Shown here: piece after piece, positions 50,869-63,247 of the stretch
Numbering within the stretch: position 1 is the first letter of the stretch
Layout of the letters: each line of letters starts with the position of its first letter
Origin: a virus
Strand: one strand, 5' to 3'
IMG/VR virus record: IMGVR_UViG_3300020478_001903
Coordinates: 1 to 64,000 of that record
Length of the DNA stretch: 64,000 nt
Notes under the pieces: model-generated
Databases searched by the model: none
Told to the model about the DNA's origin: nothing
What the model saw: only the letters and a program-made list of their open reading frames with translations
Made by a program: the position numbers and the translations under genes

Positions 50869-51819
50869 TTACCAATGAAAATTTTCCTTATAATAATCTA
50901 CAATTGCGCCAATTTCATCATCAAAAATCTTTTGCGGACTCCAACCTAAGCTTCGAAGTTTTTCATCATTTAATGAATATCTAACGTCTTGGCCCGGTCG
51001 GCGGTAGTCTAAGTTGGTAAACTGTTCCAATTCTACCTCTTTCTCAAAGAAATGTTTAAGGATTTTTTTTACTGTTTCGACGTTTTTTTGTTCAAAACTT
51101 CCTGCCACATTGTAAATTTCATTTCGTGCGCCGCTTTCAATAATAGTTGTTACGGCGGTTGCGGTATCCGAGGCATGAAGCCAGTTCCTCACTGGCTCGC
51201 CTCGATCATGAAGACGTATTTTCTTGCCTCGCTGTAGCAACTTAATGCTTAGCGGAACAAGTTTCTCTGCATGCTGATATACTCCATAATTATTGGTGGG
51301 ACGTAAAATAATATACTCTAAAGCATATGTTCTAGCCCATGCCTTGATTAGCATATCGGACGCGGCCTTAGACGCCGAATATGGATTGCTCGGCTTCAGT
51401 ACGTCTCTCTCAGTATGAGACCCCTCCGCAATATCTCCATACACCTCATCTGTACTGAAGTGGAAAAAGACCGGGGCCTCACAAACATTTGTAGGCTTAT
51501 ACCTAATGATATCTAATAAATTTTTTACCCCATTCACGTTCGTGTGAAGGAAGTCGTCACTGTCTATAATACTGTTTCCCACATGTGTTTCTGCGGCAAT
51601 ATTAATAACATAGTCACAATCGGGAAGACTCGTTAGGGTTGCAATGTCCTCGTTTTTAAAAGTGAAGCGAGGGTGCGCCTCAAAATCGGCCAATAAATGA
51701 AGGTTTGCGGCGTAGGTGCACTTATCGATTCCATAAACGCGCCAGCCCTTGTCCAAGCAAGCGCGAGTCACATAAGACCCGATAAACCCTAAACATCCCG
51801 TTATTACGACGAGCTTCAT
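50869..51819 (-). CDS. dTDP-glucose 4,6-dehydratase-like sugar-nucleotide dehydratase
   Basis: 316 residues. NAD-binding TGxxGxxGS at 7-15 (TGCLGFIGS), the RmlB signature STDEVYGD with Thr-Asp-Glu at 123-125, and Tyr147-xxx-Lys151 (YSASK). The family dehydrates and oxidises a nucleoside-diphosphate glucose to its 4-keto-6-deoxy form, the entry to most deoxy sugars. No glucose-1-phosphate nucleotidyltransferase is in the window, so the substrate nucleotide (dTDP or CDP) must come from the host or from outside it. It is last in transcription order of the glycan cassette, one base after the cupin. Length is slightly under the 350 typical of RmlB. Whether dTDP- or CDP-sugar is used cannot be told. 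Confidence 0.88.
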   Translation of the reverse strand: MKLVVITGCLGFIGSYVTRACLDKGWRVYGIDKCTYAANLHLLADFEAHPRFTFKNEDIATLTSLPDCDYVINIAAETHVGNSIIDSDDFLHTNVNGVKNLLDIIRYKPTNVCEAPVFFHFSTDEVYGDIAEGSHTERDVLKPSNPYSASKAASDMLIKAWARTYALEYIILRPTNNYGVYQHAEKLVPLSIKLLQRGKKIRLHDRGEPVRNWLHASDTATAVTTIIESGARNEIYNVAGSFEQKNVETVKKILKHFFEKEVELEQFTNLDYRRPGQDVRYSLNDEKLRSLGWSPQKIFDDEIGAIVDYYKENFHW

Positions 51820-52182
51820 CTAATCACCTTTAATAACTCTATGGCTATCGCTATCGAAATGCTGAGTTGAAAACTCGAACAACTCGGTGTCTTCTAGCGC
51901 AATCATCTGGTGCCTAAGGCCGCGTTGAACATGAAAATTGTCTCCGCGACTTAACACAATCTCATTAGCGTTGTCCAGATCGTCTTGGTCCGAATATTTA
52001 AGCAAGATTTTTCCCGACTGAATGTAAAATACTTCGTCTTTTATCACGTGATAATGCCATGAACATCTCTTGCCTTTTACAAAATACAGCAACTTCCCAC
52101 AATACTCACTGCAATTTACGATCCACTTTTCAAAGCCCCATCCTTTGGGCACAAATTTAATCGGTAAAGAACTCATTATCAT
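51820..52182 (-). CDS. Cupin protein
   Basis: 120 residues, single cupin barrel: motif 1 WHYHVIKDEVFYIQSGKI with two His and the Glu, motif 2 DNFHVQRGLRHQM. Metal ligands look complete. It resembles short cupins of the mannose-6-phosphate isomerase/polysaccharide kind. It could be a sugar isomerase, epimerase or sensor. It overlaps the HAD gene by 26 bases. Starts at 52182 or 52176 are both ATG; AAGGAA precedes the first. Specific reaction unknown. Confidence 0.8.
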   Translation of the reverse strand: MIMSSLPIKFVPKGWGFEKWIVNCSEYCGKLLYFVKGKRCSWHYHVIKDEVFYIQSGKILLKYSDQDDLDNANEIVLSRGDNFHVQRGLRHQMIALEDTELFEFSTQHFDSDSHRVIKGD

Positions 52183-52477
52183 TTATTCCTTTATCGTCAA
52201 CATACACATCTCCGGACGGCTTGCCCAAAAATAGGGAATGGTACTTGACACCCCATTCTGCTAGCTGCTTCTGTGTCACATCAAAGAACTTAGCATACGC
52301 GTAAGCTTCGGAGTTGCCGCTGCGTCCCATGCCTCGTGCCGTTTGAAATATAATTGTGTGCCCCTCGTCATAAAGTTGGTTAACCTTTTCGATCCTGTCA
52401 GTCAAAGGGGTAGAGTTCTCGTAGTCGCTGTTGGCATTATCACAGATTGTGCCGTCAATATCAAATACATATACCAT
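52157..52477 (-). CDS. Small HAD-family phosphatase
   Basis: 106 residues. Motif I DIDGTICDN at 6-14 with both Asp, then IIFQTARGMGRSG (motif II Thr), and motif III-like VYVDDKGIND near the end. Small HAD enzymes lacking a cap are used in sugar-phosphate steps. Neighbouring HldE-like kinase and nucleotidyltransferase domains suggest it may do the GmhB phosphatase step of heptose activation, although GmhB usually has DRDGT and about 190 residues. It shares one base with the nucleotidyltransferase gene. Sure of fold, unsure of substrate. Confidence 0.85.
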   Translation of the reverse strand: MVYVFDIDGTICDNANSDYENSTPLTDRIEKVNQLYDEGHTIIFQTARGMGRSGNSEAYAYAKFFDVTQKQLAEWGVKYHSLFLGKPSGDVYVDDKGINDNEFFTD

Positions 52478-52866
52478 TACATGGTCTCCAAAATGCGCGT
52501 GGTAGAATATCCCTCAACAAACTGAAATATCCTCACCGATGCTAGGTCGCTCCCAACCACTTGATCTGCTGTATAATCGCCACCTTTGACTATTATATCA
52601 GGTTCCACTTGCTTTATTAACTCGTACGGAGTATTCTCGTCGAACACCTCTACTCTGTCCACATAGCGACAGCCTTCAAGCATTACCTTACGGTCTTCAA
52701 CATTGAAGAAGGGTCGACTGGGGCCTTTAAGTCTTCGGACGCTGTCGTCACTATTTAAACCCACAACTACAGTCCCCAGTGATTTGCAATATTTAAGCAA
52801 CTCCATGTGTCCTCGGTGCAATATATCAAAACACCCATTCGTAAAGATTAGTTTAGTAGTTGGCAT
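52477..52866 (-). CDS. HldE C-terminal-like (RfaE domain II) nucleotidyltransferase
   Basis: 129 residues. Signature TNGCFDILHRGHMELL with HxGH at 17-20, then GLNSDDSVRRLKGPSRP and IVKGGDY, all found in the adenylyltransferase part of HldE, which makes ADP-heptose. It is a stand-alone domain; the matching kinase part is at 54061-54789. Split forms occur in bacteria (HldA and HldC). Overlaps the SDR gene by 14 bases. Nucleotide (ADP, GDP or CDP) cannot be told from sequence. Confidence 0.9.
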   Translation of the reverse strand: MPTTKLIFTNGCFDILHRGHMELLKYCKSLGTVVVGLNSDDSVRRLKGPSRPFFNVEDRKVMLEGCRYVDRVEVFDENTPYELIKQVEPDIIVKGGDYTADQVVGSDLASVRIFQFVEGYSTTRILETM

Positions 52867-53779
52867 ACCAGGGGCTCTCGATAATAGAATAGGTCGTTAT
52901 CAGCTGTTTGATACCGTCATCCAAATCAAAAGCACAAGTATATCCCCTCGAATAAATCTTCTCACTACTCACAATATAATCACGAGTATCAGGATCGCTA
53001 GTAAATTCCGCGCGAATTATTTCAAGTGGAAGGTGCTTCTGAATTGTCTCGGCGAGCTGCAACTTATTCATATTCAAAACATCATTGCCTACATTAAAGG
53101 TTTCCCCGGTACATGCATCCCAGTTATCGAGCACAAATTTGAACGCATTGCATACGTCATGAATATGCACATAATTCCTCATAAATTCGCACTCATAGAG
53201 CACCAGTACACGGTCTCGTAAAGTTCGTAACACAAAGTTATTAACGAGCAAATCGGTGCGCATGCGAGAAGATGGGCCGTAAACAGTCGCCAAACGGAAC
53301 GTTACGCAGTTCACAGCGCTCCTGTAGGCGTTTTCAGCGTCAACCTTGGTTCTACCATACAGAGACACGGGATTGAGCGGAGATTCCTCTGTGCGGACTG
53401 TACCGTCTTCGCTGGTGCCATACCCTGAGTTGGTGCATGGATAGATCACCTTTTGCTCCGGAAGCTTGTTGTCGGCGATCCACTGATTAATCTCGTAGTT
53501 AATTTCTACAGCTGCCCGGGGATCCCGGTCGCAAAGTGGGAACCCAACCAATGCGGCCAAAGGAATGATGACATCGCAACCTTCCATGAGCTTTCCCAAT
53601 AGCTCTCTATCACGGACGTCACCGCGCACAAAAGTAAAGTTGGGACTATTAGCGTACCTTAGTAAAGACGTGGCATCGTACATTAAGTTATCGATTACCA
53701 CCACTTCGTGATCATCAATAAAATAGTTCACCAATTCGCTACCAATATAGCCGGCTCCTCCAGTAATTAATATCTTCAT
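52853..53779 (-). CDS. NAD-dependent sugar epimerase/dehydratase (extended SDR)
   Basis: 308 residues. GGAGYIGS at 7-14, NSGYG, and Tyr141-xxx-Lys145 (YGRTK) form an intact extended-SDR active site. Similar enzymes interconvert nucleotide sugars (UDP-galactose-4-epimerase, HldD, GDP-mannose types). Position between the two HldE-like parts suggests an HldD-type heptose epimerase, but the sequence does not decide. Spacing to the DUF962 gene is 1 base. Length typical. Confidence 0.88.
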   Translation of the reverse strand: MKILITGGAGYIGSELVNYFIDDHEVVVIDNLMYDATSLLRYANSPNFTFVRGDVRDRELLGKLMEGCDVIIPLAALVGFPLCDRDPRAAVEINYEINQWIADNKLPEQKVIYPCTNSGYGTSEDGTVRTEESPLNPVSLYGRTKVDAENAYRSAVNCVTFRLATVYGPSSRMRTDLLVNNFVLRTLRDRVLVLYECEFMRNYVHIHDVCNAFKFVLDNWDACTGETFNVGNDVLNMNKLQLAETIQKHLPLEIIRAEFTSDPDTRDYIVSSEKIYSRGYTCAFDLDDGIKQLITTYSIIESPWYANY

Positions 53780-53780
53780 T

Positions 53781-54071
53781 TTACCACTCCAACTTTCCGG
53801 TTAATATATCTTTGAGCATTACCCAGTCGCATGCTTTTGCCCACAAAGGCTTAGAAAATGCGGCCGGCTCGTTCTTTTCAAAAAAGAAGTGTCCTGACCA
53901 TGCGAACGGATAAACCACAAAAGGTGTCAGCAACAAAAGCGGCCATGATTTAAAAATGATTGCTGCAACCAAAGTTAATAGTGTAACGCACTGGCCCACT
54001 ACATGCAATCGCCTACAAATAGGGTTTTGATGTAAAGTCAGATAATACTCGTAGTATTCTTTAAACGACAC
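53781..54071 (-). CDS. DUF962/Mpo1-like membrane protein
   Basis: 96 residues from a GTG at 54071, chosen because AAAGGAGG lies 7 bases upstream; a TTG at 54122 would add an unsupported 17 residues. Motifs of the family: HQNPICRRLHVVG with His14 and His23, and WSGHFFFEKNEPAAF with His61, in two short membrane helices. Yeast Mpo1 is an iron-dependent dioxygenase removing one carbon from 2-hydroxy fatty acids. A bacterial or phage role is unknown to me. It overlaps the kinase stop by 11 bases. Possible link to lipid or lipid-linked glycan changes is inference. Confidence 0.82.
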   Translation of the reverse strand: MSFKEYYEYYLTLHQNPICRRLHVVGQCVTLLTLVAAIIFKSWPLLLLTPFVVYPFAWSGHFFFEKNEPAAFSKPLWAKACDWVMLKDILTGKLEW

Positions 54072-54789
54072 CGACGCCCCTCCTTTGGACCACCTCTGTG
54101 GCACACTCGTTTGCAAAGACAATCGCTTGACGAATATCTTGGGTTTCCATATACTTGGCTACCAGGCCGGCCAAAAAAGTATCTCCTGCTCCTGACATAT
54201 CTTTCACCTCTACGTTTTCCACCGGGAACCTCTCGCCCTGGTATTCACACCCTTTCTCTCTCAAAGTAATAATCATGTTATCAGTGTTGTCAACCGTATG
54301 TTTCGTACGATTGAACTCATATTCATTAATTTTGATAAACTTGGCGCCGGTCGACCAGGGCCCTAGGATCTTTTTTGTGTCCATGAAAACAGTAGAATGA
54401 TTTTGGCAAATAAAAGCAATATCCTCTTCGATCAAAAAGCCCTTATTATAGTCGGATATAACAATAGCATCATATTTTGAAAGAAGTTCTTTCGTTAAGC
54501 CCTCAACGCGCCGAACATCTTCCTCGCCCGTGTCAACGCGTAAAAACATGTAATTGGTTTGCTGGTCCACATACCTAGTTTTTTCGGTTTTCTCAGCGTT
54601 ACTCATTAAATCACAGGCGGTCCCGAGTTGTTGGAGATTAGCTGCTACATTTGCCGCCATTCCTCCGTTGCTGCAGGTTTTCTTGGGAACGAAAACTGGT
54701 GCTGGGACGTCCGGACAAAGGCGCGTACACTCACCATATACAAATACATCAGTACATGCGTCCCCTATAACCAGCGTCTTGCTACTCAT
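54061..54789 (-). CDS. PfkB-family sugar kinase, HldE kinase-like
   Basis: 242 residues. Start VIGDACTDVFVYGECTRLCP resembles HldE domain I (the GDxxxDxxxxGxxxRxxPE opening). Glycine motif NGGMAANVAANL near 41-52 and PfkB signature DMSGAGDTFLAG at 198-209 with catalytic Asp203. HldE domain I is about 310 residues, so this form lacks some parts. It probably phosphorylates heptose-7-phosphate or a related sugar phosphate. The partner nucleotidyltransferase is at 52477. Overlaps the 136-residue gene by 8 bases. Confidence 0.88.
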   Translation of the reverse strand: MSSKTLVIGDACTDVFVYGECTRLCPDVPAPVFVPKKTCSNGGMAANVAANLQQLGTACDLMSNAEKTEKTRYVDQQTNYMFLRVDTGEEDVRRVEGLTKELLSKYDAIVISDYNKGFLIEEDIAFICQNHSTVFMDTKKILGPWSTGAKFIKINEYEFNRTKHTVDNTDNMIITLREKGCEYQGERFPVENVEVKDMSGAGDTFLAGLVAKYMETQDIRQAIVFANECATEVVQRRGVGVV

Positions 54790-55192
54790 CTTTCCAGCTA
54801 ACTTCCCAATCCTTAAAATCGGCAGCTAAGCAGTCTATCTTATAGTCCTTTCTGCCGCCAACTATCTCTTGAATTTTATTTTTGGCAACGTTGCGGATAC
54901 CATTTAGCCCATGGGTCAACTCTAGATTGTTGCCGTCTTTGATTCCTTTGCGGTAATTAGATTCATTGTGCCAAATATGAAGGTTCATTTGTGATAACAC
55001 AACAATAGCACGAATAGTTTCGCCCGTAATGTTTTCGGAAGAATCCAATATCAATTGAACATCATGAACAATGTCCTTGATTTCCTGGGAATATTCCTCT
55101 TTGTGCTCGGGAATGAAAACTTCTTTAAGCTGTGCGATAGAAAGTCTATCAATCAGCTCTGCTAATGTGGGCAAATATTTTCTTTGACTCAT
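54782..55192 (-). CDS. Hypothetical phage protein in glycan cassette
   Basis: 136 residues beginning MSQRKYLPTLAELIDRLSIA, mostly helical with QLKEVFIPEHKEEYSQEIKD and LSQMNLHIWHNES. I recall similar proteins in marine phages near sugar genes, with no known role. It overlaps the kinase gene by 8 bases, so it is co-translated. Structure-only or regulatory function cannot be judged. Confidence 0.8.
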   Translation of the reverse strand: MSQRKYLPTLAELIDRLSIAQLKEVFIPEHKEEYSQEIKDIVHDVQLILDSSENITGETIRAIVVLSQMNLHIWHNESNYRKGIKDGNNLELTHGLNGIRNVAKNKIQEIVGGRKDYKIDCLAADFKDWEVSWKDE

Positions 55193-55201
55193 AATCTACC
55201 T

Positions 55202-56347
55202 TCACCTAGGGGCACTACAGTTGGCTAAACCTTCTTTCAACGCAACAATGATTCGGGCGACGTCGTCGTCGCTCAAATACTGATGGCAGCCGATATGAAC
55301 ACCGTTGTCTCCCACCCATTCAGATTCAGGAAAATCACCCAATGAGTGACCCATGTCTGCAAAAGCCGCATGTTGTGTAGGAATACACCCAAAATTTCTC
55401 TTGTGATGAATATTGTGATGATCTAAGGCAGCCTTGATATGTTCAATATCTCCTTCTGTCTTGCACGTCACACTAAATCCATGAGGACAGTTTACATTTC
55501 CCTCGTCTTCCTCGGAAAACCACGCAACGTCTTCAAACCCCACAACGCCAGCGCGCATTTCTTTCATGAAACGATGACGTGTCCAAAATGTATCCCAGAA
55601 CACACTAAGTGCTTCGAGGCCGATAGATGCTTCTAGATCGTTCATCTTAGAGTTCAGCCCAGTTCTCAGATGATCAAAATAAATAGAATTGTGTGGGCGG
55701 CCGTGTGAGCGTGTAGAGGTCAGAAGATTGCCGATTTCTTCACTATTAGCCGACACCATACCTCCTTCGCCACAGCACACCAGGTGAGCAATGTAGAAAC
55801 TGTAAACCGACATGTCGCCCCACTGGCCGACGAGCTTGCCTTTATATCTTGCGCCATGAGCTTCGCACGCATCTTCAATGACGAGAAGATTGTGTCGAGA
55901 CGCGATATCACAGATAACATCCATTTCCGCCATGCGGCCCATCGTGTGCACCGGCATAATAGCTACCGTATTTTCGTTAATAGCCTCTTCAATTTTCGAC
56001 TCATCAATATTCAAAGTTTCTCTTTTGACGTCAACAAACTTCGGTACCAGGCCTGCAGCGCGGACTGCATTAGAGGTAGCAATAAACGACAACGCTGGGA
56101 CGATCACTTCACTAACATTTCTTTTGGCGCCCTTCAGATCATACAAAGCCAAGCAAGAGTTTAGTACACCATCCGTACCTGAACTTACAGCAACACTTTG
56201 GGTATATTCAAATAACTCGTTCCACTGCTTTTCTAAAGCCTTTACTTTCGGACCTCCGGATGCCCAGTTGGTATCGCAAACATCCATAAGATGCTCCCGA
56301 GCCAAATCGCCGATTACTAGTTCACCAAATTCAATTCTTTTTTTCAT
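55202..56347 (-). CDS. DegT-fold PLP enzyme with His at the Lys position (ColD/RfbH-like dehydratase candidate)
   Basis: 381 residues, normal for the family. N-terminal SSGTDG near 55-60, PLP-Asp in IEDACEAHGA (Asp159), and active-site segment SFYIAHLVCCGEGG at 183-196. In aminotransferases this position is Lys (as in SFxxxK...GEGG); here it is His188, the change seen in the 3-dehydratases ColD and RfbH (SFYPAHHITMGEGG in the latter, from memory). Such enzymes remove the C3 hydroxyl of a 4-keto-6-deoxy sugar with a PMP cofactor. RfbH also uses an iron-sulphur cluster; I see no clear Cys set. Function is inferred from one residue and context. ATGA overlap with the ThDP beta gene. Confidence 0.88.
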   Translation of the reverse strand: MKKRIEFGELVIGDLAREHLMDVCDTNWASGGPKVKALEKQWNELFEYTQSVAVSSGTDGVLNSCLALYDLKGAKRNVSEVIVPALSFIATSNAVRAAGLVPKFVDVKRETLNIDESKIEEAINENTVAIMPVHTMGRMAEMDVICDIASRHNLLVIEDACEAHGARYKGKLVGQWGDMSVYSFYIAHLVCCGEGGMVSANSEEIGNLLTSTRSHGRPHNSIYFDHLRTGLNSKMNDLEASIGLEALSVFWDTFWTRHRFMKEMRAGVVGFEDVAWFSEEDEGNVNCPHGFSVTCKTEGDIEHIKAALDHHNIHHKRNFGCIPTQHAAFADMGHSLGDFPESEWVGDNGVHIGCHQYLSDDDVARIIVALKEGLANCSAPR

Positions 56348-56868
56348 CTGTATAAATCTCCATGTTCAATTATTAAAGTAGATCGATCGCTGTTTAAAGC
56401 TCTCTCGTACGCAGGCACCACCTCAGGTCCGTACAGCAACTCAACTACATCAATATTGGTACAAGCGCTCCTGAAGCACTCTGTATAGTCCGCTTTATGT
56501 TGGTGACCCGGGTCGAGGGGGTACTGTGATCCCACAACAGCCTTCATGATAACCTTCGGCTTACTCTGACCCACAGACATGGCCTCCCACTTGTCTAGGT
56601 GATTTACGATTTGGTTCATTGCTAAAATGATGAAGTTCATTCTGGGATAAACAGAAACCGGAATGTATCCCTCGATGGCTAGACCTAGGGCGACTCCCGC
56701 TTGAAATTCTTCTGCAACTGGTAGTTCAAGAAGCTTCTCTGGAGGGAAATGCTTCACCTGATGAGTAAGGGCGGTTCCCTTATATTCTACGGCCTGTCCA
56801 ATAAAAATTGTTTTGGGATGCTGATTTAGCAATTCCATTCCTTTATACACTTCTTCTTTATAGTTCAT
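56344..56868 (-). CDS. ThDP-dependent enzyme, beta-type subunit (transketolase Pyr domain)
   Basis: 174 residues from the ATG at 56868, 2 bases after the alpha gene. It matches the pyrimidine-binding domain of E1-beta/transketolase: VAEEFQAGVALGLAIEGYIP with conserved Glu53 that activates the cofactor, then PRMNFIILAMNQIVNHLDKW. E1-beta proteins are about 325 residues with a C-terminal transketolase domain; here that domain is absent. The pair is thus minimal. Together with the alpha gene it should bind thiamine diphosphate and transfer a two-carbon or acyl unit. Substrate unknown. Confidence 0.86.
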   Translation of the reverse strand: MNYKEEVYKGMELLNQHPKTIFIGQAVEYKGTALTHQVKHFPPEKLLELPVAEEFQAGVALGLAIEGYIPVSVYPRMNFIILAMNQIVNHLDKWEAMSVGQSKPKVIMKAVVGSQYPLDPGHQHKADYTECFRSACTNIDVVELLYGPEVVPAYERALNSDRSTLIIEHGDLYR

Positions 56869-56869
56869 C

Positions 56870-57502
56870 CTAAAACTCCACAAATACGCCCGTACCCGAA
56901 TGGGGATAAGACATCTCATACGTATAATAAACAAGATCTGTACTAGTATCCGCAGACATAGTTTTATAGATCTGGTATAAAGACTCCGTGGGAACGGAGC
57001 CCCAGCACTCTTCAGTGATGGTCCCCACCGACTTGCCGTTGTCTTCGATTATGAAGGTGATTGGGAGGTCGTGGGATATTGCGTAAACAATAGATTCATG
57101 GGATATGCCTGTTCGAAAGCTCATATCTCCAAGAAAGCAGAATACACGATTAAGCTTATTCTGTTTCTTAAGCGCCAACGCGGTGCCGGTTGCAATCGGG
57201 GAGATTCCTCCAACGATAGCAGAACTATAGAAATTATAATCCGGGTAATGCAGGGTAATAGACCTTCCCTCTAAAATATCTTGCTTCACTCTTTCAGGAG
57301 GAACTCCCTGTAAAAGAGCGTGTAAATGGCTAGCCCAAGTTGAATAAACATAATGTTCATTGGAAATCTGAAGGTTTTTAAAGATGTCGACAAGTATCTG
57401 CTCATTACCATCTCGTAAATGCACAGGAGCGGTAATGTGGCCGGCTTCGTAGATGGCGGCGATATCTTTTTCAAACTCGATCAAATCACTGGCTTGTAAC
57501 AT
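56870..57502 (-). CDS. ThDP-dependent enzyme, alpha-type subunit (E1-alpha-like PP domain)
   Basis: 210 residues; family E1-alpha is about 320-370. ThDP/Mg motif: GD at 125-126 (FLGDMSFRTG) and ending IIEDNGKS with Asn155, 30 residues from the Gly, as in the GDG-x(24-27)-NN pattern. Also Gly-rich SSAIVGGISPIATGTALA. Two-subunit ThDP enzymes attach two-carbon branches in some antibiotic sugars (aldgarose), and YerE does so in yersiniose. Whether this pair does so is inference. The pyruvate dehydrogenase E2/E3 partners are absent, which makes an oxidative complex unlikely. It overlaps the cupin-like epimerase by 17 bases. Confidence 0.87.
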   Translation of the reverse strand: MLQASDLIEFEKDIAAIYEAGHITAPVHLRDGNEQILVDIFKNLQISNEHYVYSTWASHLHALLQGVPPERVKQDILEGRSITLHYPDYNFYSSAIVGGISPIATGTALALKKQNKLNRVFCFLGDMSFRTGISHESIVYAISHDLPITFIIEDNGKSVGTITEECWGSVPTESLYQIYKTMSADTSTDLVYYTYEMSYPHSGTGVFVEF

Positions 57503-57995
57503 TCTTTTTTAGCTCCTTTAAAGATTGTGAACGGCGATCCCTCTCTGAGACTATTTGACACAATGAGTCGTCCCATTCGGGCGATATATCAGAATCATCA
57601 TAGTGAACACTCCATTGGTCTTCCGGTGCTGTATAGTACTCGCTCCATTTATAATAGAAAATGCAAGTTGTACTCAAGCACTGATGCGCGTTTAACGTGC
57701 GTGGCGGCACTAGAACCGAAGTAGATTCAAGCGAATCACCATCTAGAATATAAACCTTTTTTTCGTCTGTGTCAATGTTATACGTAACTAATTTTATCTT
57801 TCCGTGTAAACAAGAGATAAGCTTCCACGTCTTATCGTCGCCATGAAATCCCCTAATCACTCCTTGGTTAGATTTTGAAACCTTATCTTGAACAAACGTA
57901 CAATCTACTGGGATTTTTCTTTCATCATAAATCGTATAGATATTACCGCGGGGCTCAAAATGCTTCTGATCCACCAACGTAATATCATTGTACAT
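57486..57995 (-). CDS. dTDP-4-dehydrorhamnose 3,5-epimerase-like (RmlC) cupin
   Basis: 169 residues, close to RmlC (about 180). Family signature FVQDKVSKSNQGVIRGFHG with catalytic-type His51, Lys58 in DDKTWKLI, a LHGKIKLVTYNI strand, and a later Tyr-rich part (FYYKWSEYYTAPEDQ). RmlC epimerises C3 and C5 of a 4-keto-6-deoxy sugar. Its place between the ThDP pair and an SDR, with the 4,6-dehydratase in the same cassette, fits a deoxy-sugar route. Overlap with the SDR gene is 11 bases. Single or double epimerisation cannot be told. Confidence 0.84.
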   Translation of the reverse strand: MYNDITLVDQKHFEPRGNIYTIYDERKIPVDCTFVQDKVSKSNQGVIRGFHGDDKTWKLISCLHGKIKLVTYNIDTDEKKVYILDGDSLESTSVLVPPRTLNAHQCLSTTCIFYYKWSEYYTAPEDQWSVHYDDSDISPEWDDSLCQIVSERDRRSQSLKELKKNVTSQ

Positions 57996-58941
57996 GGTTT
58001 TTATACCATTCGCAAGTCTTCCTCAAACCTTCCTCAATACTGGTGCTTACGGTCCATCCGAGATCTCGCTCGGCTTTATCGCAATTAAGTATAACAGTCG
58101 TAGGAATGTCCGGCTTGGTAAGGTCGAACTGAAGATCTAGCTCCTTGTCGTTTAGCTTCATGATTGTTTCGGCCAACTGAAGAATGGGATAAGCTTGTCC
58201 TCCTCCGCAATTGTATAGCTCATACATTCCCTTTTGGTTGTCGATGCACTTATGAATAAAATCAACCAAATCGTCAATGTAAATGATGTCTCGCGAGGCT
58301 TTACCTTCTCCCCAAATCTCTAACGTATCTTCCGCATTGATAATCTTATTTACAAAAGCGGGAACTACATGGCACTTGTCCAAGTCAAACTTGTCATAGG
58401 GTCCGTAAACATTAGAGTGACGGAAAGCCGTGAATTTCGTCGTACCAATACGTGAATAAAAGTCGCACATATTCTCATTAAAAACCTTCATATGGCCTAC
58501 GCCAAAATATGCACTGTATAACTCATCGCTGGCGCTCCAATCAGCCTCAGACTGAGGATGGTCTTTGGGCTGATACATTACCGTGCAACTGGGGAAGAGC
58601 ACATGACCTACACCAGCCGTCATTGCTTCTCGGAAGATCCAAGCATTCATGACCACATTGTCAGTCACATGAACATATGGCCTCTCTACCACGTCCTTTG
58701 CGCCGGTGGTGGTGGCAGCAGCCTGCAGTACCACATCAAAATGCTTGCTAGCAAACAGCCCCTTAACCTCGGATTCGTTGCGCAAGTCGATCGAAACATA
58801 GTCAACCCCTTCCACTCGGCCACGCTGAGGTTCTGTCTTATTAAATAACGTCGCCGTTATATCATAGCTGTCTTTAAAGTGGTCCAAACATGTTTTGCCG
58901 ATCAACCCATCAGCTCCACAAATCAGCATAGTCTTCGTCAT
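57985..58941 (-). CDS. GDP-fucose-synthase-like SDR lacking YxxxK
   Basis: 318 residues. N-terminal ICGADGLIGKT (GxxGxxG), then family segments RHSNVYGPYDKFD and HVVPAFVNKII that resemble GDP-L-fucose synthase. The catalytic YxxxK is not evident: the expected site reads AYFGVGHMK. The gene at 59593-60585 is a paralogue with a different change. NAD binding looks intact, so the enzyme may catalyse a variant reaction, or use another base. It may be inactive, but the long intact frame argues against decay. It overlaps the methyltransferase by 4 bases. Confidence 0.86.
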   Translation of the reverse strand: MTKTMLICGADGLIGKTCLDHFKDSYDITATLFNKTEPQRGRVEGVDYVSIDLRNESEVKGLFASKHFDVVLQAAATTTGAKDVVERPYVHVTDNVVMNAWIFREAMTAGVGHVLFPSCTVMYQPKDHPQSEADWSASDELYSAYFGVGHMKVFNENMCDFYSRIGTTKFTAFRHSNVYGPYDKFDLDKCHVVPAFVNKIINAEDTLEIWGEGKASRDIIYIDDLVDFIHKCIDNQKGMYELYNCGGGQAYPILQLAETIMKLNDKELDLQFDLTKPDIPTTVILNCDKAERDLGWTVSTSIEEGLRKTCEWYKNHVQ

Positions 58942-59600
58942 TCTGCTGTCTCCTTTATCAGATATGCGATCCCCACCTCCTTGGAGTGGGAAATAAATTG
59001 CCAGTTATAGTCGGTTTCTCGCAGAACTCGCGGAGTTCCGTACCTGTCTCCCTCAAAATTTGCATCATGAAGAGCCACGATTCCGCCGGCCTTAACCTTA
59101 GGATAATAGTTTTCCAAATCCTTTTTAACATACTCATAAGAGTGATTACCATCGATGAAGACAGCATCGTATTCTTTGTCGAGCGTCGCATGTAGGACCG
59201 TAGAATCCCCCTCTAAAATCGTCTCTAAAGTAGAATCCATTTCGGGCTTGTAGCGCTCAATAAACTGTGGGTCGTACTCAATCGTCGTGATATGATCCAG
59301 GAGCAGACTCAGTACAAAATGTGTAGAGGCCCAGTGGCCCAGCCCAATCTGTAGCATATCTTTAACATCGTTTTTTAACAATAATTTCAAGAAGTCCACC
59401 AACTCTGCTCTGACCTGTTGGGTTACCTGTGGGTGACTATTAACAATGTCTACATCTGGATTAATGTACAAATCTTTGTACCAATCGTTTTGTGCTAAGA
59501 TGTTCCGTGAACGTTGTTCCGAGAGAGACAAAACTAAATCTATTTTTGGGAGCAACTCCTGGTTATGGATATACTGTTTTATAAATTGCTTATTAATCAT
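58938..59600 (-). CDS. Class I SAM-dependent methyltransferase
   Basis: 220 residues from ATG 59600 behind GGAGGAG. Motif I LQIGLGHWAST near 83-93, followed by an acidic end of strand 2 (ITTIEYDPQF), then AVFIDGNHSYEYVKKDLENY and GGIVALHDANFEGD. The IDGNHxYxxxxxDL and HDAN patterns belong to the Methyltransf_24 group, often sugar O-methyltransferases. It is between two SDR paralogues, so it may O-methylate their sugar product. Substrate unknown. Overlaps the next gene by 8 bases. Confidence 0.84.
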   Translation of the reverse strand: MINKQFIKQYIHNQELLPKIDLVLSLSEQRSRNILAQNDWYKDLYINPDVDIVNSHPQVTQQVRAELVDFLKLLLKNDVKDMLQIGLGHWASTHFVLSLLLDHITTIEYDPQFIERYKPEMDSTLETILEGDSTVLHATLDKEYDAVFIDGNHSYEYVKKDLENYYPKVKAGGIVALHDANFEGDRYGTPRVLRETDYNWQFISHSKEVGIAYLIKETAE

Positions 59601-60585
59601 TGCTATTCTCCTCCACCTGAAAGGGGTTAAACCTACCAGTCGTCGGACCATTTGCCAGATACCACTCCATAGTCTCCTTCAGGCCTTCCTCTAAGCTCAC
59701 AGAGGGCTGGAATCCATATCCGTTAAGGCGCTCTGTGTTGGGTACCCTAAACTGATCTCCGGTAGGCTTACTAAGATCGTGGGTAATGGCTAGATCTTTT
59801 CCGGACACGGCCACTAGGGTCTCGATGACCTCCTTAATAGTAAAGGTCCTTCCATGACCAACATTTAGGGGTTTCGTAATTTGATTTTCTACGGCAAAGA
59901 TAGCGGCGCCAGCAATATCGCGGGCATGAATAATATCCCTACCGGCAGAACCATCACCCCAAATCTCAACGGAAGTCTCAGCCTCAGCCACCTTACGAAC
60001 CAACGAAGGAATAAGCGTCGAAGTACGCAAATCAAAATTATCAAATTTACCATAGATGTTGGCAGGCTTAATAATAGACATCTTCTTTTCCTCATACTGC
60101 TCGTCATAAGCATTAACCTGAACTTCGCCCATACGCTTCGCCCAGCCGGCAAACCAATCATTGGGGGAGGGGTTCTGAGTCCACAAATCGTCCTCCTTAA
60201 AGGTCCGAGCAGGACCATATGTGCCAATGGTGCTGGTATAAAGCCCCCACTTCACTGAGGGAGTGTTGTAGATGGCGTCGAGTATGTTGGTGTTCATCAT
60301 GATAAAGTCTCTAAATATTTGATATTGAAAGGTTTTCATAACAACAGGGGAACCTTTAACTCCGGCAATATGGAAAACATAATCCATACCTTCACACAAC
60401 TCATAACAGTTGGTCTTCGACCGCAAATCTTTCTTGACATACGTAGCGCCCCATGCAGGATCAAGATTGTTCTCGTCCAAAGATACGGACGTAACGACGG
60501 CTCCCTTCTTAACCAGCAGTTCTACTAGTTCACGACCTACAAGACCCGTGCCGCCAGTAACCAAGACTTTTTTATTCTCAAGCAT
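59593..60585 (-). CDS. GDP-fucose-synthase-like SDR with altered YxxxK
   Basis: 330 residues. GGTGLVGRE at 11-19 binds NAD(P). Segments PANIYGKFDNFD and TLIPSLVRKV match the paralogue at 57985. At the catalytic site the sequence is DWFAGWAKRMGE: Lys is kept but the Tyr four residues before it is Ala. Paralogy is supported by EIWGDGSAGRDII versus EIWGEGKASRDII. Both enzymes having altered Tyr suggests a shared, unusual chemistry rather than random loss. Overlaps the glycosyltransferase by 8 bases. Confidence 0.87.
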   Translation of the reverse strand: MLENKKVLVTGGTGLVGRELVELLVKKGAVVTSVSLDENNLDPAWGATYVKKDLRSKTNCYELCEGMDYVFHIAGVKGSPVVMKTFQYQIFRDFIMMNTNILDAIYNTPSVKWGLYTSTIGTYGPARTFKEDDLWTQNPSPNDWFAGWAKRMGEVQVNAYDEQYEEKKMSIIKPANIYGKFDNFDLRTSTLIPSLVRKVAEAETSVEIWGDGSAGRDIIHARDIAGAAIFAVENQITKPLNVGHGRTFTIKEVIETLVAVSGKDLAITHDLSKPTGDQFRVPNTERLNGYGFQPSVSLEEGLKETMEWYLANGPTTGRFNPFQVEENSND

Positions 60586-61531: not shown

Positions 61532-62245
61532 TTAACGGTATCCCCTTGTTTTATAGTTTATATCATATTCTCGGAACATTTCAAACATTTCATCATAATA
61601 TTCGGCAATATTCCACAATCCCTTGGTCACAGCAGTCGCAATACAGGGGTAAATGGTCGAATCGTAATGAAATATTCCTCTTTTCGGAGAGCCCGAGTAG
61701 TATTGGAGGCCCTTGAGGCCCAATTGGCGGCACAAGCTAGACCCTTGTGGTTCTTGCTGCATGCGTGTATTTCCCTCCGGTGCGGCTTCAAAAATGCTCT
61801 CAAAGGCGCGAGTATCCCACAAACTTGCCTGTTGTGCGAAAAAGTTAGGATCTTCTGGGTCGATAATATAGAGATTATCTCGATAAGGCGTTGTAGCTTC
61901 GGGCCCCTTAATAAATTTGCAAAAGCTGTATTCTGTTTCGTCCAACAGTCGTGTCAACTCTTCTATTTTAGCCTGCTGGATGTCTGCGTAAAGAATATAG
62001 TCTTCGCTCGTATACAAAATATATTTTTCTTCGACTTGATTTATGCAAGAAAGAAACTGATCCCGGTAAGCTGCCTCGTTATCATAAAGAATAGGAACAA
62101 TATCGTCCGGAAGACCATCGGCAGTGTCCGTGAACGCGTACTTTTTGATCCCCTTCGCATGGCGGGAGAGGCGGCCAAAACAAGGAGCCCATACATCTGA
62201 ATAGTTTGAGTTAGTATCTACAATTAAAGCTAGATTATCAGCCAT
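61532..62245 (-). CDS. Possible glycosyltransferase
   Basis: 237 residues from ATG 62245 (MADNLALIVDTNSNYSDVWA). The segment ILYTSEDYILYADIQQAKIE contains a DxD/ExD-like acidic motif with preceding strand, as in GT-A enzymes. I do not recognise the family otherwise. It ends basic/Tyr-rich (REYDINYKTRGYR) and abuts the CgeB-like gene with no gap. Glycosyltransferase is a guess from context and the acidic motif; it could be another sugar enzyme. Confidence 0.55.
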   Translation of the reverse strand: MADNLALIVDTNSNYSDVWAPCFGRLSRHAKGIKKYAFTDTADGLPDDIVPILYDNEAAYRDQFLSCINQVEEKYILYTSEDYILYADIQQAKIEELTRLLDETEYSFCKFIKGPEATTPYRDNLYIIDPEDPNFFAQQASLWDTRAFESIFEAAPEGNTRMQQEPQGSSLCRQLGLKGLQYYSGSPKRGIFHYDSTIYPCIATAVTKGLWNIAEYYDEMFEMFREYDINYKTRGYR

Positions 62246-62867
62246 GAGGACGAACCTCCACATCCTTAAAAATATCAAATTCAGTAAGATCTCGATACGG
62301 AGGATTCTCAGGAATATCCGGCACGTTTTGCGGGTAATTCTGCATCAATGTCAAGCCCCTGGCGGCTTGCTCTGGTGTCATATACATATTCCAGCCCTCC
62401 TCATCAATGTTGTCCTCGTGGTATTTCATGCCGGCAGTACGCCCCTCATAGCGTCGAGCCTTGAACCATTCAGCTGCCTCTGGATTATCTGTGAGTATCA
62501 TTCCACCTTTACCAATCTTAAGATGTTTTTTGATATGAAAGCTTAAGCACATAAACGTGCCCGGAATATACATATTGGAAGTAAACCTCTTGGCTGCGTC
62601 ATAAACCGGAAAAGGCTTAAGCTGATATATTCCCTCCCACGGGCGGTCATCAAATATCAGTTTGCCACCAGCTTGACGAACGGACTGTGGCGGAGATAAG
62701 TAGGTGCGCTTTGGTATTATAACTTCTTTGTCTTTGACTCCCACCCATTTACAAGCGAGAAACAGGGCATTCGTGCAACTATTCAGCGAGACCGCGCAAG
62801 GAGCGCCAGTATAGTGGGCCACTTCCTCTTCAAACATTTGAACTACTTTATAGGGACTATGTAGCAC
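62238..62867 (-). CDS. Short DegT-family aminotransferase
   Basis: 209 residues from a GTG at 62867 with GGAGAAATA upstream, in a TAGTG overlap with the acetyltransferase stop. It has the SLNSCTNALFLACKWVGV segment, PLP-Asp90 in PVYDAAKRF, and Lys114 in LSFHIKKHLKIGKGG, so the catalytic Lys is present, unlike in the gene at 55202. Family members are about 370 residues; the C-terminal small domain is mostly missing, with no frameshift in sight. It may be a natural short form. With the GNAT gene next door it suggests an amino sugar that is then acetylated. Confidence 0.83.
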   Translation of the reverse strand: MLHSPYKVVQMFEEEVAHYTGAPCAVSLNSCTNALFLACKWVGVKDKEVIIPKRTYLSPPQSVRQAGGKLIFDDRPWEGIYQLKPFPVYDAAKRFTSNMYIPGTFMCLSFHIKKHLKIGKGGMILTDNPEAAEWFKARRYEGRTAGMKYHEDNIDEEGWNMYMTPEQAARGLTLMQNYPQNVPDIPENPPYRDLTEFDIFKDVEVRPHG

Positions 62868-63247
62868 TATTTCTCCAATAAATAATATTTCTTTGTAAAG
62901 CCACAACTCTCAAACAAACGCACGCTAGCTTCGTTTTCAATTTTAACCTTCGCAACCCCATCAGGATGACGCTTCATCAACTCATTAATCATGAACTTTG
63001 CCACGCCTCTTTTCTGAAAGTCTGGATGTGTTGCAACACGAATATCATTATCAATAGCGCCCACAAAACCAGCAGGTTGACCCTCCACCAAACAAATATA
63101 GTACATCTTACCATACTTCTTCATGTATGTCACGTGATTATTAAAACTTATTTCACCTTGTTGGATAAACCCCTGTTTGACATCTTCGTGGGTTCGCAAC
63201 AATCGAATAAACTCCCAATATTCTTTTTCATTCTCTACTAATTCCAT
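62867..63247 (-). CDS. GNAT acetyltransferase
   Basis: 126 residues. Acetyl-CoA motif A: RVATHPDFQKRGVAKFMINE with Q/RxxG/A (QKRGVA), preceded by GFVGAIDNDI and followed by KVKIENEASVRLFESCGF, the usual GNAT C-terminal strand/helix. It probably acetylates the amino sugar made by the adjacent aminotransferase, as in Fuc3NAc or pseudaminic-acid routes, though other acceptors are possible. Overlaps its right-hand neighbour by 10 bases. Confidence 0.85.
   Translation of the reverse strand: MELVENEKEYWEFIRLLRTHEDVKQGFIQQGEISFNNHVTYMKKYGKMYYICLVEGQPAGFVGAIDNDIRVATHPDFQKRGVAKFMINELMKRHPDGVAKVKIENEASVRLFESCGFTKKYYLLEK

Follow-up and report, generated by a model that had tools for sequence, protein, structure and literature searches.

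Among DegT-fold enzymes that carry histidine at the position of the lysine that binds pyridoxal 5'-phosphate (PLP), those with established reactions are 3-dehydratases (ColD and CDP-sugar 3-dehydrase). Two-subunit thiamine diphosphate (ThDP) enzymes of the pyruvate dehydrogenase (PDH) E1 type are described, in the available parts of PMC12247030 and PMC4425429, as attaching pyruvate-derived two-carbon branches to keto sugars. In the available part of PMC10680097, Cj1427 and a PLP-dependent C3-dehydratase from Campylobacter jejuni together gave GDP-D-glycero-3-deoxy-4-keto-heptose in vitro, the ion of which is given there as 616.08. Here, we analyze a phage locus in which genes related to these enzymes lie together. 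It is found in a 64,000-nucleotide stretch of viral DNA (hereafter the window; positions 1 to 64,000 of IMG/VR record IMGVR_UViG_3300020478_001903), itself part of a 100,350-base virus record.

We put at about 0.5 the probability that this cassette builds a heptose nucleotide-sugar branch through C4 oxidation, 3-deoxygenation, and two-carbon branching. The genes, their key residues, and the conservation of the set are observed; from these we infer every reaction, along with which nucleotide and donor are used, where the branch is attached, and what the final product is. A preliminary description of the window, made from its letters alone, had proposed the combination of 3-deoxygenation with a two-carbon branch, the latter made by a two-subunit ThDP enzyme. 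Our analysis supports this logic and places the enzyme in the PDH E1 type, with the reactions themselves inferred.

The core genes of the cassette

The genes that carry the argument lie on the minus strand, within a run of sugar genes that extends from approximately 50.9 to 64 kb of the window:

55202..56347, minus strand: His-type DegT-fold enzyme of 381 amino acids (aa), predicted nucleoside diphosphate (NDP)-4-keto-heptose 3-dehydratase (PF01041, 270.5 bits; His188 aligned)
56344..56868, minus strand: ThDP beta subunit of 174 aa, pyrimidine-binding domain only, with catalytic-type Glu53 (PF02779, 32.2 bits)
56870..57502, minus strand: ThDP alpha subunit of 210 aa, diphosphate-binding domain, with a GDM...EDNGK motif (PF00676, 43.8 bits)
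52853..53779, minus strand: Cj1427-like NAD-dependent C4-dehydrogenase, with TNS replacing the dehydratase TDE (PDB 6vo6, 300 bits; motif)

A histidine in place of the PLP lysine

His188 of the window DegT occupies the position of the PLP lysine when aligned with perosamine synthetase, and no lysine aligns in its PLP pocket. In the profile of 22 relatives, an invariant histidine column aligns with residue 188 of ColD, the position of its catalytic histidine; in the printed alignments, this residue is His in 2gms, Lys in 2r0t, and Asn in 3b8x (titled "H188N mutant"). The lysine-to-histidine change that the preliminary description had read in this gene, directly adjoining a ThDP pair, is thus borne out.

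This residue is strictly conserved in the cassette. The DegT nearest alpha has His188 in 72/72 bacterial and 22/22 readable viral proteins, two further viral ones being cut short. For comparison, 32/32 control DegT open reading frames (ORFs) from 14 of the same genomes have lysine. These controls are the best 30 of 71 matches in the 14 genomes, taken outside the set nearest alpha, and the 32 ORFs include two duplicated pairs. The proposed pathway is favored because of this contrast between cassette and control proteins. Four bacterial loci (L090, L124, L131, and L134) also carry a second DegT, farther from alpha, with lysine. The motif of this Lys-type DegT in the Pelagibacter locus L131 is shared by one control, L154.

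The family profile, compared with solved structures, ranks ColD first (390.6 bits), ahead of CDP-sugar 3-dehydrase E1 (308.9 bits) and perosamine synthetase (262.7 bits). Identity between window-type and non-window-type DegTs is 21-29%, and the window protein scores 184.9 bits with the RfbH equivalog NF011936, under its curated cut-off of 423. We predict from residue and profile that the window DegT is a 3-dehydratase that leaves a 3-deoxy-4-keto sugar.

A minimal two-chain ThDP enzyme

The beta ORF opens at a TTG (56934). Since its relatives start at an ATG corresponding to position 56868, which is preceded by GGAG, we read beta from there (174 aa); its Glu53 is residue 75 of the longer ORF. 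This catalytic-type glutamate of E1-beta is kept in 80/80 bacterial and 36/36 viral beta proteins.

The alpha family profile and an AlphaFold 2 (AF2) model of alpha both match PDH E1-alpha, and the beta family profile matches PDH E1-beta. The preliminary description had named the sulfopyruvate decarboxylase type as a different home to which the pair might belong. E1 chains instead rank first by profile for both chains and by fold for alpha, so a sulfopyruvate-decarboxylase-like pair is rejected. The alpha match to TPP_enzyme_C (21.2 bits) is just under the cut-off of 21.9, and beta matches PF02779 only. A YerE-like ThDP decarboxylase, which is a single chain of TPP_enzyme domains, is also rejected, given two chains that are E1-like and a beta subunit of this composition.

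Both chains are unusually short, at 210 aa for alpha and 174 aa for beta, compared with 365-400 and 324-369 aa in the matched E1 chains, and beta is without the C-terminal domain. Alpha has a G-D/E-M motif, with methionine in 80/80 bacterial and 35/38 viral proteins. The canonical ThDP-enzyme motif is given as GDG in the available part of PMC12247030. At the metal-binding position of this motif (residue 126 of the window alpha), the bacterial alphas comprise 36 Asp, 42 Glu, and 2 Gly. No E2 acyltransferase (PF00198) was detected in five viral records, compared with 10 of 14 control genomes, although the records are possibly incomplete and a host could supply E2. The short beta and the missing E2 gene make a PDH role unlikely, and an ordinary PDH E1 with a viral E2 partner is rejected.

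A gene set shared by phages and environmental bacteria

Alpha relatives occur at 160 loci of GTDB genomes, as recovered by a scan with two sequence patterns from the alignment, which favors near relatives. The 80 loci kept for counting span, going by record titles, 11 named phyla, led by Pseudomonadota (39), Nitrospirota (13), and Verrucomicrobiota (13), with three loci without a phylum. Viral counts are based on 38 loci with distinct alpha proteins, drawn from 55 (51 from IMG/VR, 3 phage records, and L059). Neighbors were assigned by best match at E 1e-9 within the stretch around alpha, with the families of short-chain dehydrogenases/reductases (SDRs) split by best score alone; alpha was used to select the loci, hence its own count is meaningless. 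Best-match counts were used in place of greedy gene calls, which overlooked some beta and DegT genes where ORFs on the opposite strand interfered in G+C-rich genomes.

Beta is present around alpha in 80/80 bacterial and 36/38 viral loci, the other two (S-SM2 and P-TIM68) having alpha-beta fusions. The most common bacterial neighbors (n = 80) are DegT (72), a heptose-kinase-like GHMP kinase (66), a B12 radical S-adenosylmethionine (SAM) protein (63), and a Cj1427-like SDR (59), followed by an HddC-like protein (43), a GDP-fucose-synthase-like SDR (36), a GmhA-like sugar isomerase (SIS) protein (25), and a second nucleotidyltransferase type (11). Where at least 6 kb is available on both sides of alpha (48 bacterial loci), DegT, radical SAM, and the kinase are each found at 43 and the Cj1427-like gene at 42. 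Among the viral loci (n = 38), the Cj1427-like SDR (30), radical SAM (28), and DegT (24) predominate, with RmlC-like (13), PfkB (10), and GHMP kinase (9) genes also present.

As a set, these genes are not a general background of DegT-bearing sugar clusters. Alpha, heptose kinase, HddC-like, SIS, GmhB-like, and RmlC-like genes are all absent from twenty neighborhoods of Lys-type DegTs in 13 of the same genomes (stretches of 4.9 to 17.1 kb). Present in these neighborhoods are two matches to the C4-dehydrogenase (68 and 132 bits), one match each to beta (58.9 bits) and radical SAM (61.2 bits), four RmlB-like genes, and one GDP-fucose-synthase-like, one PfkB, and one nucleotidyltransferase match. 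A chance neighborhood in polysaccharide clusters is rejected by this control. Thus, the gene set is neither chance nor peculiar to this phage, and is common to many environmental bacteria.

The preliminary description had considered such a set unusual for a phage. This holds for annotated phage records, where alpha is matched in 8 of 50,697, several of which duplicate a single phage, while two of the matches are to an ordinary acetoin gene. It does not hold for viral metagenomes, which yielded 51 IMG/VR loci, and the module is also bacterial.

Some Pelagibacter loci have further ThDP enzymes. L131 (3039-7999) and the similar L124, L130, and L135 have, beside the cassette, a ThDP enzyme resembling acetolactate synthase as well as a second E1-like pair with longer chains; in L134, only this second pair is present. 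A single Pelagibacter sugar cluster can therefore hold up to three ThDP enzymes, with families scanned for L131 only.

Conserved neighbors point to a heptose

The window SDR at 52853-53779 matches PDB 6vo6 at 300 bits, with the next match at 74.8, and a Nitrospira SDR matches 6vo6/6vo8 at E 4e-109, the sole match below 1e-25; these two proteins are the members compared directly with 6vo6. We take 6vo6/6vo8 to be Cj1427, the GDP-heptose C4-dehydrogenase of C. jejuni. A paper on the Cj1427 structure appears in the reference list of PMC10680097. The window SDR and nearly all its relatives have Thr-Asn-Ser where 4,6-dehydratases carry Thr-Asp-Glu, which fits an oxidation without dehydration.

Other neighbors suggest the same sugar class. 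In Nitrospira and cyanobacterium examples, the best NCBIfam matches are HddA, HddC, GmhA, and GmhB, all below curated cut-offs, and the best match of the Nitrospira kinase is to solved heptose kinases. The Pelagibacter member of the second nucleotidyltransferase type (L131) has fused HddC-like and GmhB-like domains. A heptose substrate is favored because a Cj1427-like gene lies near 59/80 bacterial and 30/38 viral alphas and a heptose-kinase-like gene near 66/80 bacterial alphas. The 4-keto-6-deoxyhexose substrate of the preliminary description, on the other hand, is not borne out: the conserved neighbors are heptose enzymes and a Cj1427-type C4-dehydrogenase.

Trees and gene history

In a tree of alpha and beta, made by a quick method and with long branches flagged, the nearest neighbors of the window pair are three other viral pairs, followed by a Thiotrichaceae bacterium. 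Elsewhere the tree interleaves viral with bacterial rows, and well-supported branches force at least five changes between them, donors not being shown. A metagenome-assembled genome labeled Bordetella parapertussis (L095) groups with other Burkholderiales assemblies in this tree; its label may be wrong.

The DegT tree included every second bacterial locus, with rows of unusual length dropped. A branch with 97% support separates 27 Lys rows from the His side, where the window-type DegTs fall, at the edge of the His group. Their histidine may be of shared or independent origin; with the window type on a branch 2.4 long, the tree is compatible with either one or two Lys-to-His changes.

Other genes of the phage run

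The contig encodes portal and large terminase proteins, confirming its phage nature, and its alpha and DegT proteins are 100% identical in a 165,065-base contig, which we call its twin. The remaining genes of the run are as follows:

50869..51819, minus strand: RmlB-like 4,6-dehydratase with a TDE motif, in the gene run and not a conserved partner (TIGR01181, 303.4 bits, below the cut-off of 365.1)
52157..52477, minus strand: small haloacid dehalogenase (HAD) phosphatase, EcbF/BcbF-like (TIGR01689, 44.8 bits, below the cut-off of 162)
52477..52866, minus strand: nucleotidyltransferase, like the heptose-1-phosphate adenylyltransferase domain of HldE (TIGR02199, 148.6 bits, below the cut-off of 181.5)
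54061..54789, minus strand: PfkB kinase, like the heptose-7-phosphate kinase domain of HldE (TIGR02198, 118.9 bits, below the cut-off of 345; PF00294)
54782..55192, minus strand: 136-aa protein between DegT and the kinase (its cluster, K11, has 17 loci, all viral, and 0 of 80 bacterial)
57486..57995, minus strand: RmlC-like 3/5-epimerase (PF00908, 80.6 bits; TIGR01221, 64.1 bits, below the cut-off of 155.75)
57985..58941, minus strand: GDP-fucose-synthase-like SDR, candidate reductase (NF047922, 128.2 bits, below the cut-off of 500)
59593..60585, minus strand: second GDP-fucose-synthase-like SDR (NF047922, 147 bits, below the cut-off of 500)

The preliminary description had placed a 4,6-dehydratase and an RmlC-like enzyme in the same operon. 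Both are indeed on the same strand within the run, but the 4,6-dehydratase is not a conserved partner, as an RmlB-type gene lies near alpha in only 12/80 bacterial and 7/38 viral loci. The 136-aa protein, judging by its distribution, may be a phage-specific part of the module.

Several further observations concern the run and another phage. An Mpo1-like small protein (53781-54122; PF06127, 113.4 bits) lies within the sugar run, and its relatives, by clustering, occur near alpha in 10 viral and 0/80 bacterial loci. A short DegT-like protein of 222 aa (62238-62906) matches PF01041 in two stretches and, by eye, has lysine in the motif. In another locus, L172 (8493-12981), three adjacent plus-strand phage genes resemble by eye a YeaH/VWA - SpoVR - PrkA set.

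A proposed route and its alternatives

In the route that we propose, an activated heptose would be supplied as an ADP type in the phage, through the HldE-like genes, and as a GDP type in most bacterial relatives. The Cj1427-like enzyme would oxidize C4 of the NDP-heptose to the 4-keto form, and the His-type DegT would remove the C3 hydroxyl to leave 3-deoxy-4-keto-heptose. The short alpha/beta ThDP enzyme would then decarboxylate pyruvate and transfer the acetyl unit onto the ketone at C4. Completion of the sugar could fall to a GDP-fucose-synthase-like reductase, acting on the branch, and the RmlC-like epimerase, after which phage glycosyltransferases might place it on a glycan at the surface, probably a host polysaccharide in modified form.

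Several findings weigh against this route. Neither HddA nor HddC was assigned near the window cassette, where there are instead the HldE-like kinase and nucleotidyltransferase, both below NCBIfam cut-offs. The HldE route yields a beta-ADP sugar, not the alpha-GDP sugar used by Cj1427; with these two genes, the nucleotide in the phage may be ADP. The window DegT, compared by itself, scores higher with aminotransferases than with E1 or ColD, and its branch in the tree is very long. DegT is missing from the stretch examined in 8/80 bacterial and 14/38 viral loci, and the window's record yielded no relative of the radical-SAM partner that most other loci carry. Among solved structures, the ThDP chains come closest to ordinary E1 chains of the PDH or branched-chain type (13-20% identical when folds are compared), and we know of no reaction for any enzyme of the minimal ThDP subfamily. 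The run also includes the RmlB-like 4,6-dehydratase.

This last gene is the basis of an unlikely alternative, in which it would provide a dTDP- or CDP-4-keto-6-deoxyhexose for 3-deoxygenation by DegT and branching by the ThDP pair, resulting in a yersiniose- or aldgarose-like hexose. Its TDE motif is intact, and both YerE and the two-subunit enzymes act on 4-keto-6-deoxyhexoses. However, RmlB-type genes accompany far fewer alphas than Cj1427-type genes do (12/80 and 7/38, against 59/80 and 30/38), the relatives carry heptose genes, and no dTDP-/CDP-glucose synthetase-type NTP transferase was matched among the 20 run proteins scanned with Pfam. As a conserved substrate, dTDP/CDP-6-deoxyhexose is rejected on the neighbor counts. 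A slightly more doubtful possibility is that the ThDP pair and the B12 radical-SAM protein make another modification (e.g., an acyl that is transferred and then C-methylated), with the His-type DegT in a parallel branch. The frequency of radical SAM near alpha (63/80 bacterial and 28/38 viral loci) and the additional ThDP enzymes in some Pelagibacter loci would agree with this. Nevertheless, the window record and its 165-kb twin have no radical-SAM match yet keep alpha, beta, DegT, and the C4-dehydrogenase; both records are possibly incomplete. On the same grounds, and with the same limit, B12 radical SAM is rejected as an obligatory part.

It is more improbable still that the pair acts upstream, as a transketolase- or E1-like supplier of the carbon skeleton (e.g., sedoheptulose phosphate or an unusual acyloin), and is linked to DegT by a shared pathway only. 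The profile comparison brings up a split transketolase chain and DXS as distant relatives, and some cassettes include GmhA-like enzymes, whose substrate is sedoheptulose 7-phosphate. Yet E1 chains come first by profile and, for alpha, by fold, and the link to DegT (72/80 bacterial loci) is far tighter than that to GmhA-like genes (25/80). We consider least probable that the window-type DegT belongs to an aminotransferase lineage that gained its histidine independently and either no longer dehydrates or performs another PLP reaction. The single window protein scores two aminotransferases (153.2 and 150.4 bits) above E1 (124.0) and ColD (107.4), and so is not placeable by itself. Its AF2 model (pLDDT 89.3) gives VIA Z values of 47.6 for GDP-perosamine synthase, 46.6 for the E1 dehydrase 3bcx, and 44.6 for ColD 3b8x, with aminotransferases close, such that the fold comparison does not separate ColD/E1 from aminotransferases. 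The four window-type DegTs in the tree also stand alone on their very long branch. Set against these points are their position on the His side of the well-supported branch, the cassette context that they have in common with the other DegTs, and the fact that His types with established reactions, as far as is known, are 3-dehydratases.

The heptose route, if extended to all carriers, leads to a broader view that we hold more tentatively and consider somewhat less probable than the route itself. The cassette, consisting of a minimal split GDM/GEM ThDP carboligase, a Cj1427-type C4-dehydrogenase, and a ColD-type 3-dehydratase, would be dedicated to a widespread and so far undescribed nine-carbon surface sugar, a 3-deoxy-4-C-(two-carbon)-heptose, or ten-carbon with radical-SAM methylation. 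It would be common to Pelagibacter, Nitrospira, Prochlorococcus, Verrucomicrobia, and beta-proteobacteria, with phages having repeatedly taken and rebuilt it, probably to remodel the host surface during infection.

Novelty and implications

All of the enzymes can be assigned to known superfamilies, and there are precedents for each half of the chemistry. New, as far as the literature listed shows, are the gene combination, a ThDP enzyme that is minimal and split, and the heptose context. Among the literature matches listed, in which subscription journals are thinly covered, there was no account of the cassette or of a C-branched heptose route.

If the proposed route is correct, the cassette would be a genetic marker for an undescribed branched heptose in environmental bacteria (Pelagibacter and Nitrospira among them) and their phages. 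NDP-3-deoxy-4-keto-heptose, which, according to the available part of PMC10680097, came from C. jejuni enzymes combined in vitro, would thereby gain a natural use. The ThDP pair would be a very small split carboligase active on ketones, and such a reaction is of interest for making tertiary alcohols. Carriage by phages, moreover, bears on phage changes to host surface sugars.

Comparison with known systems

ColD (GDP-4-keto-6-deoxymannose 3-dehydratase) and RfbH/E1 (CDP-4-keto-6-deoxyglucose 3-dehydrase) are like the cassette DegT in fold and in the histidine at the PLP-lysine position. They differ from it in sequence, with identity of about a quarter (25-28%), and in that the neighbors of the window DegT point to heptose.

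The chemistry of YerE, in yersiniose, would match the proposed branching, as it places an acetyl branch on C4 of a 3-deoxy-4-keto sugar. YerE is described in the available parts of PMC4753412 and PMC12247030 as a single flavoprotein of the decarboxylase superfamily, in contrast to the split E1-type enzyme here. Beside YerE can be set the acetolactate-synthase-like gene that some Pelagibacter loci also carry.

Cyanophages S-SM2 and P-TIM68 encode a "transketolase central region-containing protein" (L053 9971-11179 and L054 10040-11185, respectively) that is a relative of both alpha and beta, with an annotated carbohydrate kinase and nucleotidyltransferase nearby. It is one fused chain, keeps GDG, and lies beside a zinc alcohol dehydrogenase; no DegT relative was found in the 20-kb stretches.

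The capsular heptose pathway of C. jejuni is alike in its Cj1427-like enzyme, candidate PLP C3-dehydratase, RmlC-like epimerase, GDP-fucose-synthase-like reductase, and heptose activation genes. Its parts are the Cj1427 C4-dehydrogenase, the HS:5 C3-dehydratase, C3/C5-epimerases, and C4-reductases, with the C3-dehydratase likened by description. In the available part of PMC10680097, this C3-dehydratase follows a 4,6-dehydratase and was combined with Cj1427 in vitro. The ThDP pair and HldE-like activation set the phage cassette apart from this pathway.

The alpha-keto acid dehydrogenase 2 group (AviB1/AviB2, Pau11/Pau12, KbDH, and the aldgamycin enzyme) consists, like the cassette pair, of E1-alpha/E1-beta pairs. 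These are proposed or shown, in the available parts of PMC12247030 and PMC4425429, to put the two-carbon unit of pyruvate on a keto sugar or ketone. The cassette has the adjacent E1-alpha- and E1-beta-type genes and the catalytic-type glutamate in beta that mark this class, and is without its full-length beta with a C-terminal domain and its canonical GDG in alpha. Pau11 and Pau12, likened by description, are full length (325 and 345 aa), whereas the cassette chains have 210 and 174 aa and GDM/GEM. Furthermore, the known group serves antibiotics, while the cassette pair sits in surface-sugar-type clusters of mostly Gram-negative bacteria and of phages.

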